In this document: in pieces, positions 1-13,305 of the stretch | How positions within the stretch are numbered: the stretch's first letter is position 1 | How the letters are laid out: each line of letters opens with the position of its first letter | NCBI GenBank assembly: GCA_002173095.1 | Contig: NHBK01000014.1 | Location: 124,001 to 188,000 of the forward strand | Length of the DNA stretch: 64,000 nt | Direction of reading: 5' to 3' | Origin: Hyphomonadaceae bacterium TMED5 | GTDB taxonomy: Bacteria; Pseudomonadota; Alphaproteobacteria; Caulobacterales; Hyphomonadaceae | Notes under the pieces: generated by a model | Database searches by the model: none | Seen by the model: only the letters and a program-made list of their open reading frames with translations | Told to the model about the DNA's origin: nothing | Translations under genes and position numbers: made by a program

Positions 1-538
1 AATAACCTTTAGCCTGCGTCAATTCCGTTTTCCAGTTTCTTCCCTTCAGAAACACCCCTATTGCGGAGTTATCCAACCATTTCTCACAATAGTGGATAAG
101 TCCGGACAAATCTGTGACTGCGCGAGCGGTTATGAAGTCGACTGTTTCACGTGAAACATTCTCGATACGGGCGTTTTCGACCGTCACAGGGAGGTTCAGC
201 TCCCGCGCTACAGTGCGAAGGAACACGCATCTCTTCTGCAAAGACTCTACGAGAACCAATTCGGTGTCTTCAGCTTCAGCGGCGCAACATGCCAGGATAA
301 TGCCGGGCAAGCCCGCACCAGACCCAATATCCATGATGACTTTACCGCTAGAAACCAGCGGCCAGACCTGAAGGCAATCGAGAATATGACGTTCCCATAA
401 TTCGTCGCGCTCTCTCGGGCCGATTAAATTATGAGTCTTGCTCCACTTCAGAAGGAGATCATGATAGCCGCTCAGGCGATCATATGTTTCACGTGAAACA
501 TCAAAATCGAGCCGCGCGCATAGTTTTTCATATTTCAT
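1..538 (-). CDS. rsmG: 16S rRNA (guanine527-N7)-methyltransferase RsmG, cut by the left edge
   Basis: The reverse strand from ATG 538 reads in frame to base 1 without a stop, giving 179 residues; about 30 C-terminal residues lie outside the window. RsmG uses SAM to methylate G527 of 16S rRNA. The SAM-binding loop [10 protein letters not shown] is at residues 70-79, preceded by RHILD at 50-54 and followed by an LVES...KR segment and an ITARA motif, all typical of the family. The start overlaps the mnmG stop (ATGA), so the two are translationally coupled. Two parS palindromes fall within the coding sequence, each read in frame as VSRET. parA and parB usually follow rsmG in this class, beyond the window. 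Confidence 0.95.
143..158. other. parS: parS site 1 (inside rsmG)
   Basis: TGTTTCACGTGAAACA is a perfect 16-bp palindrome identical to the consensus ParB-binding centromere of bacterial chromosomes. It lies within rsmG and is translated as part of N-VSRET-V. It is about 6.7 kb from the predicted origin. Confidence 0.93.
485..500. other. parS: parS site 2 (inside rsmG 5' end)
   Basis: A second exact TGTTTCACGTGAAACA palindrome, near the start of rsmG, read in frame as D-VSRET-Y. Its spacing from site 1 is 342 bp. Confidence 0.93.
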
Positions 539-2444: not shown

Positions 2445-2460
2445 TGTTTCACGTGAAACA
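2445..2460. other. parS: parS site 3 (mnmE-mnmG gap)
   Basis: Exact TGTTTCACGTGAAACA palindrome filling most of the short gap between the mnmE stop (2461) and the mnmG start (2424). This is the only parS copy in the window that directly abuts a stop codon. Confidence 0.93.
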
Positions 2461-3815: not shown

Positions 3816-3831
3816 TGTTTCACGTGAAACA
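3816..3831. other. parS: parS site 4 (rho-mnmE gap)
   Basis: Exact TGTTTCACGTGAAACA palindrome in the 50-bp gap between the rho stop (3849) and the mnmE start (3798). It is the exact copy closest to the predicted origin, about 3 kb away. Confidence 0.93.
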
Positions 3832-5713: not shown

Positions 5714-6760
5714 TTATCCCATCGCCTGAATATGTTTCATCAGCTCAGCTACATTCTCCGGATTCGCATCCGGTGTAATGCCATGGCCCAGATTAAACAC
5801 ATGCGGCCGTTCAGCTGATCTGTAAGCCTCTATCAGCTCATCTGCACGATTGAGCATGGCTTTGCCACCAGCAATCATTGTCAGCGGGTCCAGATGGCCC
5901 TGAACAGGGAAGCCAGCAGGCAGATTAGCGTTTACGAAGGCAGGAACCTGCCCTGTGTCCAGTCCGACCGCAGTCACACCGGTGCGAGCCACATAATCTG
6001 GAAGTTTCGCTCCAGCCCCCCTCGGAAAGCCAATAATTGGAACGGTAATACCTTCAGCCCACAAATTCGCGACCAGTTTTTTCGTCGGCTCAATCACCAG
6101 CCAATCGAAAACGGTGTCCGGCAGGTTCTCCGCCCAGCTGTCAAACAGCATAAGCGCATCAACGCCAGCTTCGACCTGGGCTTTCAGATATTCAGTTGTC
6201 GCCAGAACAATGTGATCGAGAACAGCTTTCAGTTCATCTGGACGTGTGTACGCCCACAACTTTGGAAGTTTCTTGTCTGTGCCGCCACGACCTTCAATCG
6301 CATAGACAGCAACTGTCCACGGAGAGCCCGCAAACCCGATCAATGGGAAGCCTGGCTCAAGGTTTTGTTTCAGACGGCTGACGGTTTCCATAACCGGCGA
6401 AAGTCGTGTCGCAACTTTGGAGAGGTTTACCTTCTCAAGGTCAGAGGCTTTTTCCAGCGGATTAAGGATAGGACCTTCGCCTGTTTCAAAACGTAAGCCA
6501 CGATCCATTGCATCCAGAATAAGAAGGATGTCTGCAAACAGGATTGCTGCATCAAACGGATAACGACGAAGTGGTTGAAGTGTTGCTTCTACTGACAGAG
6601 ATGGCGTGTAGCAGAAATCCAGAAAATTCTTAGCTGTCGCTCTGATCTCACGATACTCAGGCAGGTAGCGCCCAGCCTGTCTCATAAGCCATACCGGAGG
6701 TCTTACCGACGTTTCACCCTGCAAGGTTCGAATGAAAAGGGAGTTTTCCGCGCCCGCCAT
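5714..6760 (-). CDS. hemE: Uroporphyrinogen decarboxylase HemE
   Basis: Converts uroporphyrinogen III to coproporphyrinogen III in heme synthesis. The 348 residues match the family length. Motifs seen are the N-terminal RPPVWLMRQAGRYLPEYR signature, the catalytic-aspartate region FDAAILFADILL, the IGFPRGAG loop and a C-terminal HGITPDANPENV. It is the first gene leftward of the predicted origin. In Caulobacter the hemE promoter lies within oriC and is controlled by CtrA. Here CtrA-like boxes lie 31-74 bp upstream of the start, suggesting the same arrangement. Confidence 0.97.
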   Translation of the reverse strand: MAGAENSLFIRTLQGETSVRPPVWLMRQAGRYLPEYREIRATAKNFLDFCYTPSLSVEATLQPLRRYPFDAAILFADILLILDAMDRGLRFETGEGPILNPLEKASDLEKVNLSKVATRLSPVMETVSRLKQNLEPGFPLIGFAGSPWTVAVYAIEGRGGTDKKLPKLWAYTRPDELKAVLDHIVLATTEYLKAQVEAGVDALMLFDSWAENLPDTVFDWLVIEPTKKLVANLWAEGITVPIIGFPRGAGAKLPDYVARTGVTAVGLDTGQVPAFVNANLPAGFPVQGHLDPLTMIAGGKAMLNRADELIEAYRSAERPHVFNLGHGITPDANPENVAELMKHIQAMG

Positions 6761-6790
6761 GACCTGATCCTTTATATAAGACTCTATTTA

Positions 6791-6806
6791 TTTACTATTT
6801 CTTAAC
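6791..6806. promoter_or_regulatory. CtrA-like box, one mismatch
   Basis: TTTA-CTATTTC-TTAAC matches the CtrA consensus TTAA-N7-TTAAC except for one base in the left half. It lies 13 bp before an exact CtrA box and 31 bp upstream of the hemE start, so it could both silence the origin and control hemE. Confidence 0.6.
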
Positions 6807-6818
6807 CAGTGACCTAGG

Positions 6819-6834
6819 TTAACAAACTCTTAAC
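6819..6834. promoter_or_regulatory. CtrA box (exact TTAA-N7-TTAAC)
   Basis: TTAA-CAAACTC-TTAAC is an exact full CtrA site. In Caulobacter, phosphorylated CtrA binds such boxes in oriC and blocks initiation in swarmer cells. Its presence here supports both the oriC call and cell-cycle control of the CtrA type. Confidence 0.82.
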
Positions 6835-6874
6835 AACTGACTTCTAGGCAGCTTTCCACTGGCCTAATCACACA

Positions 6875-6883
6875 TCATCCACA
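6875..6883 (+). promoter_or_regulatory. DnaA-box-like nonamer
   Basis: TCATCCACA differs by one base from the canonical TTATCCACA and by one base from the Caulobacter G-box TGATCCACA. Confidence 0.6.
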
Positions 6884-6951
6884 GAGTGGAAACCTCTCTG
6901 AAACCGAATTTGTACCTTTGATACAGGCTTCAAGACGTCGCATTGAAATAT

Positions 6952-6960
6952 TTATCAACA
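6952..6960 (+). promoter_or_regulatory. DnaA-box-like nonamer
   Basis: TTATCAACA differs from TTATCCACA at one position. Confidence 0.55.
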
Positions 6961-7015
6961 GCGTGCGGATAAAAAGAGAACAAAAATGAAGGAAATCAGA
7001 GCTTGTGAATTAGGC

Positions 7016-7024
7016 TGTGGATGA
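7016..7024 (-). promoter_or_regulatory. DnaA-box-like nonamer (reverse)
   Basis: TGTGGATGA is the reverse complement of TCATCCACA, the same nonamer as at 6875. The two form an inverted pair about 140 bp apart. Confidence 0.6.
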
Positions 7025-7040
7025 GAAATAAGAAACTTAA

Positions 7041-7049
7041 CGATCCACA
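7041..7049 (+). promoter_or_regulatory. G-box-like DnaA site
   Basis: CGATCCACA is one base from the Caulobacter DnaA G-box TGATCCACA. It directly follows a TTAAC half-site at 7037-7041, so DnaA and CtrA could compete here. Confidence 0.5.
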
Positions 7050-7088
7050 GACTATACACAGGGGTTGTGGAAGAACGGGGTAAATTTA

Positions 7089-7931
7089 GTGTCGCATGGC
7101 GATCTGAAATCTAAGCTGCAGATCTATTTCAATGTTCACCTGGTGTCGGATTCCACCGGGGAGACGCTGAACGCAGTCATGCGTGCGGCGTGTGCCCAGT
7201 TCGAAAACATCATGCCGCTTGAGCACAATTATTATCTGGTCCGATCTGAAAAACAATTGGATCGGGTTTTAAAGGAAATTGACGGCGCGCCGGGCGTTGT
7301 GTGGTTCACAATCACCGATGAATCCCTTCGAACCCGGCTGGAAAATCATTGCCGGTCCAATGGTCACCCAATTCTTCCAGTGCTCGATGCATCTGTGAAT
7401 ATGCTCTCGCGTCATCTGGGTCTGCGGACATCTGACAGAACCGCTGCCCAGCATGCGATGAATGATGAATACTTCGAACGCATGGAAGCAATTAATTATA
7501 CGCTGGCGCATGATGATGGTGCCGGCCCGGATGGGCTGAAGAATGCAGATGTCGTGCTTGTGGGTATCAGCCGGACCTCAAAAACACCGACCTGTGTGTA
7601 TCTCGCCAATCGGGGGGTGAAGGCCGCGAACGTTCCGCTTGTGCCCGGCGTACCTCCGCCGAGACAGCTTTTAGAGCTGGATGGGAAAATTCCGCTCATT
7701 ATTGGCCTGAAGATTTCTCCTGACCGTCTGGTTCAGATCCGTCAGCAACGTTTGCTCAATCTGAATGAAGGCGCGCAGACAAGTTATGTGGATGATGACG
7801 CTGTCCGCGCAGAAGCCACCGAAGCTAACAGACTTTTCCTTCGCCAGAAATGGAAGACGATTGATGTCTCCCGCCGGTCTGTGGAAGAAACAGCCGCAGC
7901 AATTCTCAATGTGCTGAGAAGCGGAACCTGA
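7089..7931 (+). CDS. PPSR-type bifunctional kinase/pyrophosphorylase regulator (DUF299)
   Basis: Family members phosphorylate and dephosphorylate a threonine of pyruvate phosphate dikinase or PEP synthase to switch it off and on. The N-terminal motif FNVHLVSDSTGET and the P-loop-like GISRTSKTPTCVYLANRG identify the family. I chose GTG 7089 because a GGGG run lies 8 bp before it and the length becomes 280 residues, the usual size. A TTG at 7065 would extend it into the origin. It is the first rightward gene after oriC, as in Caulobacter, and is followed by maf 3 bp later. Which dikinase it controls cannot be told from this window. Confidence 0.9.
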   Translation: MSHGDLKSKLQIYFNVHLVSDSTGETLNAVMRAACAQFENIMPLEHNYYLVRSEKQLDRVLKEIDGAPGVVWFTITDESLRTRLENHCRSNGHPILPVLDASVNMLSRHLGLRTSDRTAAQHAMNDEYFERMEAINYTLAHDDGAGPDGLKNADVVLVGISRTSKTPTCVYLANRGVKAANVPLVPGVPPPRQLLELDGKIPLIIGLKISPDRLVQIRQQRLLNLNEGAQTSYVDDDAVRAEATEANRLFLRQKWKTIDVSRRSVEETAAAILNVLRSGT

Positions 7932-12690: not shown

Positions 12691-13305
12691 ATGACCCGCC
12701 GCCGCAATCTGTCTTCCCGCGAACAGCGCATGTGGCAAAGGGTGACGAAATCCGTCCGTCGGCTTGAGAACAGGCATCCGGAAACAGACCCGGCTGAAGA
12801 TGCGCCGAACGAAACACCTGAGCCGACAGTTTCACGTGAAACGCATCATGCTCCGAAACCCTTTGAGTGGCCTAAAGCGTCCAGAGAGGATCTGGAGAAG
12901 CTGTTATCCGACCATACAAGCCCGACCATTCGCTCGCGATTGTCTAAACCCGGCCCGAAGCAGAAGCCCGGTGCACCCGGTCTTGCGGATAGGAGCCGTG
13001 AAAAGCGCGTTCAACGCGGCAAATTTGATATTGGTCCGAGCCTCGATCTGCACGGTCATACACAAGACAGCGCAAAAGCCAGCCTTATGCGGTTTGTGTC
13101 CTATCACCATTCTCTGGGTGAAAGTTCTATTCTGGTCATTACGGGTAAGGGCCGTGGCGGAACGGGCATTTTGCGGACCCGTTTTCTGGAATGGATCGCG
13201 GAGCCGGGCTTTAAATCGCACATTAGCGGATTTTCGCGCGCCAATCAGAAACATGGCGGTGATGGTGCGTTTTATCTGTTCTTACGGAAAACCGACAAGT
13301 CTTAG
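12691..13305 (+). CDS. Smr-domain protein
   Basis: The last 90 residues form an Smr (small MutS-related) domain with LDLHGHTQDSA and ITGKGRGGTGILR, motifs of predicted nucleases. The N-terminal 110 residues are charged and disordered. Function is not established for this stand-alone alphaproteobacterial type. It starts 3 bp after mltA and is the last rightward gene of the origin block; hisE faces it 3 bp away. A near-perfect parS palindrome lies in the disordered part, translated as VSRET, the same five residues encoded by the parS copies in rsmG. Confidence 0.88.
   Translation: MTRRRNLSSREQRMWQRVTKSVRRLENRHPETDPAEDAPNETPEPTVSRETHHAPKPFEWPKASREDLEKLLSDHTSPTIRSRLSKPGPKQKPGAPGLADRSREKRVQRGKFDIGPSLDLHGHTQDSAKASLMRFVSYHHSLGESSILVITGKGRGGTGILRTRFLEWIAEPGFKSHISGFSRANQKHGGDGAFYLFLRKTDKS
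12828..12843. other. parS: parS-like site 5 (inside the Smr gene)
   Basis: AGTTTCACGTGAAACG keeps the full 14-bp palindromic core GTTTCACGTGAAAC of parS and differs from the four exact copies only at the two outermost bases. It is on the other replication arm, about 6 kb right of the predicted origin. Confidence 0.75.

Follow-up and report, generated by a model that had tools for sequence, protein, structure and literature searches.

Does the short intergenic gap between hemE and PPSR contain the replication origin of this chromosome and, if so, how do the CtrA and DnaA sites within it relate to one another and to the DNA that has to be opened? An origin linked to hemE and carrying CtrA and DnaA sites is, as such, long known, and for Hyphomonadaceae the accessible part of one report already places CtrA next to the origin of Hyphomonas neptunium by ChIP-seq (PMC7200025). 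What is new here is where the CtrA pair sits in Ponticaulis, a placement particular to this genus and a variant of the Caulobacter-type origin; for Ponticaulis no description of the origin was found in the open-access literature searched. The DNA analysed, hereafter the window, was a stretch of 64,000 bases (bases 124,001-188,000 of a 403,570-bp contig) from a draft genome of 3.55 Mb in 27 contigs.

Position of the probable origin

The PPSR protein of the window matched seven loci in named genomes, with matches of 86-91 percent to Ponticaulis koreensis DSM 19734, whose gap has the layout of the window, and to four MAGs of Ponticaulis or Hyphomonadaceae; a single match, at 50 percent, was distant. 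The matches to Ponticaulis therefore identified the organism of the window as a member of that genus (Hyphomonadaceae). A PPSR protein 100 percent identical to that of the window is also present in the public MAG PALD01000014.1, labelled Cytophagaceae, a label that is probably wrong. The flanking genes diverge from the gap as the first-pass annotation had described, with hemE on the minus and PPSR on the plus strand (Table 1), and hemE adjoins PPSR in 103 of 105 loci fetched from five families of the order, the remainder being one exception and one locus cut by a contig end.

Cumulative GC skew, calculated over the first 368,000 of the 403,570 bases of this one contig out of 27, reached its minimum at contig position 130,959 (window 6959), inside the gap, where it had been predicted to fall if the gap were an origin, and skew blocks of 8 kb on the same contig were all negative up to 128 kb and all positive after it. 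The feature that marks membership of this class of origin, a hemE-flanking intergenic gap in which the skew reaches its minimum, was thus present, with the skew taken from one contig. The cluster of parS sites noted within 7 kb was confirmed as four exact copies, 2.9-6.6 kb away on the hemE side of the gap, which are the sole exact copies in the genome; a further, one-mismatch copy is 186 kb distant. Genes resembling parA and parB, named from their translations, are located just past gidA/mnmG and an rsmG-like gene. On the PPSR side of the origin, a two-mismatch parS-like site was seen at window 12828-12843.

The genome encodes DnaA, GcrA and three HU/IHF-family proteins, together with a CtrA orthologue that scored above the NCBIfam CtrA cut-off and was 79 percent identical to a C. 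crescentus CtrA sequence, and a CcrM-like methyltransferase that scored 620.7 bits, below the model cut-off of 830. Also observed was a frame of 134 residues (L131, G000:C16:597934-598125) that has a region resembling DnaA domain IV and no ATPase part; we take it to resemble HdaB of Caulobacter.

The skew minimum, the conserved sites described below and the encoded CtrA-, DnaA-, GcrA- and CcrM-like proteins supported the earlier proposal of a chromosome origin with Caulobacter-type sites. The position and composition of the gap, its sites, their conservation in seven species and the encoded proteins were all established directly, and the gap is very probably the hemE-linked, Caulobacter-type chromosome replication origin of a Ponticaulis species.

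Table 1. Coordinates of the features of the window, counted from its first base.
Feature	Position	Strand	Remarks
parS, exact	143..158		
parS, exact	485..500		
parS, exact	2445..2460		
parS, exact	3816..3831		
hemE, uroporphyrinogen decarboxylase	5714..6760	-	Pfam PF01208, 342.6 bits
Putative chromosome origin, hemE-PPSR intergenic gap	6761..7088		328 bp; skew minimum inside; divergent flanks
Least stable 40-bp stretch; candidate unwinding element and hemE promoter region	6766..6805		Nearest-neighbour profile
GANTC (CcrM-type site), hemE to CtrA box 1	6780..6784		G, A, T and C invariant in 7/7 species
CtrA box 1, TTTACTATTTCTTAAC	6791..6806	+	One mismatch; 16/16 columns invariant in 7 species
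Run of four strict DnaA-trio-like triplets that overlaps CtrA box 1	6792..6803	-	7/7 species; weak
CtrA box 2, TTAACAAACTCTTAAC	6819..6834		Exact; half-sites invariant in 7 species
DnaA half-site CTAATCACA, left 11-bp pair, first	6864..6872	+	Last six bases invariant in 7/7 species
DnaA box TCATCCACA, left 11-bp pair, second	6875..6883	+	1 mismatch to TTATCCACA; last six bases invariant in 7/7 species
DnaA-like box TTATCAACA	6952..6960	+	1 mismatch to TTATCCACA; 4/9 columns invariant, poorly conserved
DnaA-like box TTATCCGCA	6964..6972	-	2/9 columns invariant, weak
DnaA-like box TAATTCACA	7004..7012	-	6/9 columns invariant
DnaA box TCATCCACA	7016..7024	-	1 mismatch to TTATCCACA; 6/9 columns invariant
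DnaA box CGATCCACA, right 11-bp pair, first	7041..7049	+	2 mismatches to TTATCCACA; 7/9 columns invariant
DnaA-like box CTATACACA, right 11-bp pair, second	7052..7060	+	2 mismatches to TTATCCACA
DnaA-like box TCTTCCACA	7066..7074	-	5/9 columns invariant
PPSR (pyruvate,phosphate dikinase / PEP synthase regulatory protein)	7089..7931	+	NF003742 and PF03618; GTG start assumed

CtrA boxes and the AT-rich stretch beside hemE

Both CtrA boxes of the first-pass annotation, an exact TTAA-N7-TTAAC at 6819 and a one-mismatch copy at 6791, were found. TTAACAAACTCTTAAC at 6819-6834 reads as an exact TTAA-N7-TTAAC on both strands, in registers offset by one base, and over both strands of the gap the exact CtrA 16-mer was seen 2 times with 0.01 expected (1 of 2000 dinucleotide shuffles reached 2). 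Two boxes at up to one mismatch are not rare by chance (0.45 boxes expected, with two reached by 168 of 2000 shuffles), and the case for the one-mismatch box at 6791 (box 1), invariant in 16 of 16 columns, therefore rests on conservation. Among the seven Ponticaulis species, 9 of 9 half-site columns of box 2 were invariant compared to only 3 of 7 spacer columns, with 130 of the 334 alignment columns invariant as background, and nine columns drawn at random from the alignment were all invariant in 14 of 100,000 draws. All seven gaps contain at least two boxes of the form TTAA-N7-TTAA (or TTWW-N7-TTWW), with the two boxes of the CtrA pair beginning 28-30 and 56-58 bp from hemE. In the 3.55 Mb genome 16 places carry the exact 16-mer, with 21 strand matches compared to 30 for the reversed control, so that the 16-mer is not enriched genome-wide; box 2 is its single place in the contig of the window.

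The least stable 40 bp lay within gap offsets 4-52 and overlapped CtrA box 1 in all seven species, with the Ponticaulis CtrA pair sitting on the inner edge of this least stable DNA, and 33 of the 38 columns at offsets 9-46 were invariant, a conservation that could stem from the hemE promoter without any part in replication. At the GANTC site at 6780 the variable base was C in three species, T in one and A in three. Clustering of GANTC as a feature of the window was rejected, this single site excepted (1.71 per gap versus 1.39 in shuffled sequence for Ponticaulis).

A DnaA-trio reading of the triplet run over CtrA box 1 was also set aside, and the run is treated as a weak hint only. The box-plus-trio rule, as set out in the accessible text of its source (PMC8287927), looks for a DnaA box (up to two mismatches) that has three or more NAN triplets within 16 bp, to which we added the demand that three triplets be strict; by this rule no combination was found at the run in any of the seven species, and the only match in the window was at the box at 6952, with none in the six congeners. 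The IHF consensus WATCAN5WTR was found in none of the seven Ponticaulis gaps and in 3 of 62 Hyphomonadaceae gaps, so it is rare in the whole family, and a looser scan of the window gave one-mismatch matches only.

DnaA sites and their separation from the CtrA pair

The five DnaA-like nonamers listed previously (6875, 6952, 7016, 7041 and 7052) were all located in the gap, together with sites absent from that list at 6964, 7004 and 7066 and a half-site at 6864. Four DnaA-like sites with up to one mismatch were seen where 0.08 were expected, an excess of about 50-fold (none of 2000 dinucleotide shuffles reached four), and eight with up to two mismatches where 1.14 were expected from 2000 such shuffles. 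Weak DnaA boxes of the G-box type (TGATCCACA, one mismatch allowed) were present at 6875, 7016 and 7041, and the strict consensus TTATNCACA, in the form in which it appears in the accessible part of an earlier study (PMC1914354), matched in none of the seven Ponticaulis gaps. The left 11-bp pair (6864/6875) is present in all seven species and the right (7041/7052) in half-site form in six; the second box of the right pair has TACACA in the window, and at this position the other six species have CCACA or TCACA.

The claim that CtrA and DnaA boxes are strictly separated stood in part. With DnaA boxes counted at up to one mismatch to TTATCCACA, TGATCCACA or TCATCCACA, the CtrA pair lay hemE-ward of every such box in all seven Ponticaulis species, but 'strict' proved an overstatement, as two-mismatch sites intrude in four of them: in three species the space between the CtrA boxes holds a DnaA-like site of this kind and CTTTCCACA sits directly against box 2; in the fourth (G083) TTAACCAGA overlaps box 2. 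These intruding sites would allow for some exclusion of DnaA by CtrA. In the window, G082 and G084, no DnaA-like site with up to two mismatches touches either CtrA box, and a stricter scan against TTATCCACA gave no site overlapping the CtrA boxes in six of the seven species. No G-box overlapping or near a CtrA box was found in the gap of the window, where 40 bp separate box 2 from the box at 6875 and 29 bp separate it from the half-site at 6864. The closeness of a G-box to a CtrA box is treated here as a variable feature, its placement differing across the order.

The CtrA pair in other Hyphomonadaceae

The comparison set comprised 62 Hyphomonadaceae gaps, with three dropped from the selection, in which the hemE and PPSR starts of the relatives were placed by homology. 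At least one CtrA box (up to one mismatch) was present in 58 of these and an exact TTAA-N7-TTAA in 48, and a pair of CtrA boxes 23-37 bp apart was found in 48 where 0.3 were expected (distances of 20-40 bp searched; 40 shuffling rounds). Fourteen gaps have no CtrA pair, four of them (G033, G034, G078 and G086) being without any box. DnaA half-sites [CT]CACA arranged head to tail at exactly 11 bp numbered 100 over both strands of the 62 gaps, with 0.2 expected, and the next commonest distance, 12 bp, accounted for 14 cases.

In the other pair-bearing genera (41 gaps) the distance from hemE to the start of the CtrA pair is 128-168 bp; 36 of these gaps have at least one DnaA-like site (up to two mismatches) hemE-ward of the pair. 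No such site was found on the hemE side in the other five (G039, G041, G050, G065 and G103), of which four belong to genus g5 and carry a hemE-side 11-bp half-site pair; an 11-bp DnaA pair is in fact present on this side in all 19 g5 gaps having a CtrA pair, and in g3 one to three weak DnaA boxes lie hemE-ward of it. The contrast with Ponticaulis is partly trivial, because only about 30 bp remain there on the hemE side of the CtrA pair. The HemE tree did not settle where Ponticaulis branches within the family, and the idea that its layout is derived was therefore dropped as unsupported. In a separate set of genera (g13, g16, g28 and g36 of family f4; six gaps, L110-L113, L116 and L117) a single CtrA box was seen 28-32 bp before PPSR, at the opposite end of the gap from the Ponticaulis pair.

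DnaA boxes fused to CcrM sites in g5

GANTC was about three- to six-fold over shuffles in the origin gaps of g3, g4, g5, g6 and g10, and hardly enriched in g2 (1.50 versus 0.99 shuffled). We take g5 to be Hyphomonas and its genome G042 to be Hyphomonas neptunium; 24 of 42 g5 genomes were analysed. Gaps of g5 contain 8.1 GANTC sites each versus 1.5 when shuffled, the Ponticaulis figure being 1.7 per gap. The sequence GANTCACA, in which a DnaA box is fused to a GANTC, occurs 3-5 times per g5 gap (0.05 expected) and forms the second box in 43 of 43 plus-strand 11-bp DnaA pairs of this genus, compared to 1 of 31 such pairs with any GANTCACA box in other genera; examples are the gaps of L027 (G053), L033 (G063), L038 (G056) and L044 (G076). 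The middle base of the fused GANTC varies at otherwise conserved positions. The sequence GANTCACAGG is rare genome-wide, with 47 copies in six complete g5 genomes together (2-13 per genome), no excess over its reversed control (45), yet 13 of the 47 lie inside the origin gap as located via PPSR positions.

DnaA boxes fused to GANTC in Hyphomonadaceae were not described in the open-access literature searched. If functional, they would make initiation depend directly on methylation at an origin that needs DnaA; a role for hemimethylation has been proposed, in the accessible part of the report concerned, for the RepC-dependent ori2 of Agrobacterium tumefaciens (PMC11514494). It is conceivable, if rather doubtful, that Hyphomonadaceae origins follow one plan, of 11-bp DnaA pairs and two CtrA boxes spaced by about three helical turns, with two alternative locks: methylation gating in g5 and CtrA on the unwinding edge in Ponticaulis. 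In g5, the GANTCACA second boxes could gate DnaA assembly by their methylation state, which would be an analogue of hemimethylation control without SeqA, and in Ponticaulis, which is without dense GANTC, the CtrA pair beside hemE might physically hold the strands shut.

A model for the Ponticaulis origin and its alternatives

In the model that we favour for Ponticaulis, DnaA would load on the PPSR-side boxes and on the head-to-tail 11-bp pairs (6864/6875 and 7041/7052) and, once loaded, would open the AT-rich stretch beside hemE. Phosphorylated CtrA would bind the boxes at 6791 and 6819, which are spaced by 28 bp, covering the inner edge of the AT-rich stretch just upstream of hemE, and bound CtrA would stop strand opening and probably also hemE transcription; inactivation or degradation of CtrA would then allow the origin to fire. 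From the position of the CtrA pair we infer both its role in holding the AT-rich stretch shut and its action on hemE transcription. Taken as a whole, an origin at which DnaA opens the AT-rich stretch and the CtrA pair blocks this opening appears the probable explanation, with a good measure of reserve, and for all of the binding, the site of unwinding, and a block at unwinding rather than by excluding DnaA, our doubt slightly outweighs our confidence.

Three other explanations were weighed. An origin elsewhere, with the gap no more than an ordinary promoter region for two diverging genes, is very improbable: the sites are short and degenerate, the strict TTATNCACA is absent and the skew comes from one contig, but the skew minimum, the parS cluster, the excess of DnaA sites, the gene order and the family-wide conservation all favour the gap. 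Should the gap be the origin, the CtrA pair might still serve mainly as an operator of the hemE promoter, with an effect on replication that is indirect or exerted via transcription. From the hemE start codon, box 1 is 31-46 bp upstream, with the conserved GANTC and a TATATAA stretch in the interval, and promoter activation is one possible mechanism of CtrA in C. crescentus according to the accessible part of PMC4468827; the other pair-bearing genera, however, keep the CtrA pair at the distance from hemE given above, away from its start, and we consider an operator role unlikely while giving it some weight.

CtrA could alternatively act as in Caulobacter, keeping DnaA off nearby weak sites; steric exclusion of DnaA is the simplest mechanism in C. 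crescentus according to the same partly accessible source (PMC4468827). The two-mismatch sites between, abutting or overlapping the CtrA boxes in four of the seven species agree with this, whereas the window, G082 and G084, with their boxes untouched, and the stricter TTATCCACA scan, free of overlap in six of seven, speak against it, and we judge it improbable. The favoured model, of a CtrA pair that closes the unwinding edge, and this exclusion of DnaA could be separated using close relatives, as 48 of the 62 gaps retain a CtrA pair and its place differs in one genus.

Comparison with known origins

The Ponticaulis gap is like the basal unwinding system in having a trio-like run on the hemE side in all seven species, and unlike it in that the run here is without an adjoining DnaA box by the rule used. 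With the origins of Rickettsiales (Wolbachia and others) it shares the hemE boundary and the CtrA and DnaA sites; as far as the accessible part of that work goes, the other flank in Wolbachia is a CBS-domain gene and IHF sites are reported in Rickettsiales, where the same consensus finds none here (PMC1914354).

Within the family, the Ponticaulis gaps share 11-bp DnaA pairs with those of g5, taken to be Hyphomonas, but the CtrA boxes of g5 lie mid-gap, where those of Ponticaulis are hemE-proximal, and GANTC is dense in g5.

The accessible part of the C. crescentus account (PMC4468827) describes an origin, Cori, in which CtrA has five high-affinity sites and each of two G-boxes is near a CtrA site or overlaps one. 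Ponticaulis resembles it in combining CtrA boxes with weak DnaA boxes and in having parS within 8 kb, and differs in having two CtrA boxes rather than five and near-consensus DnaA boxes that stand apart from the CtrA boxes, where those of Cori adjoin or overlap CtrA boxes. The Caulobacter origin includes an IHF site, unlike the Ponticaulis gaps, which lack the IHF consensus. In four loci of g19, inferred to be the genus Caulobacter, hemE and PPSR flank the gap as in Ponticaulis, with a gap length of 482-512 bp compared to 328 bp here, and in three of these four gaps the least stable hemE-side stretch carries a CtrA box, a half of the plan that this Caulobacter-like genus has in common with Ponticaulis.
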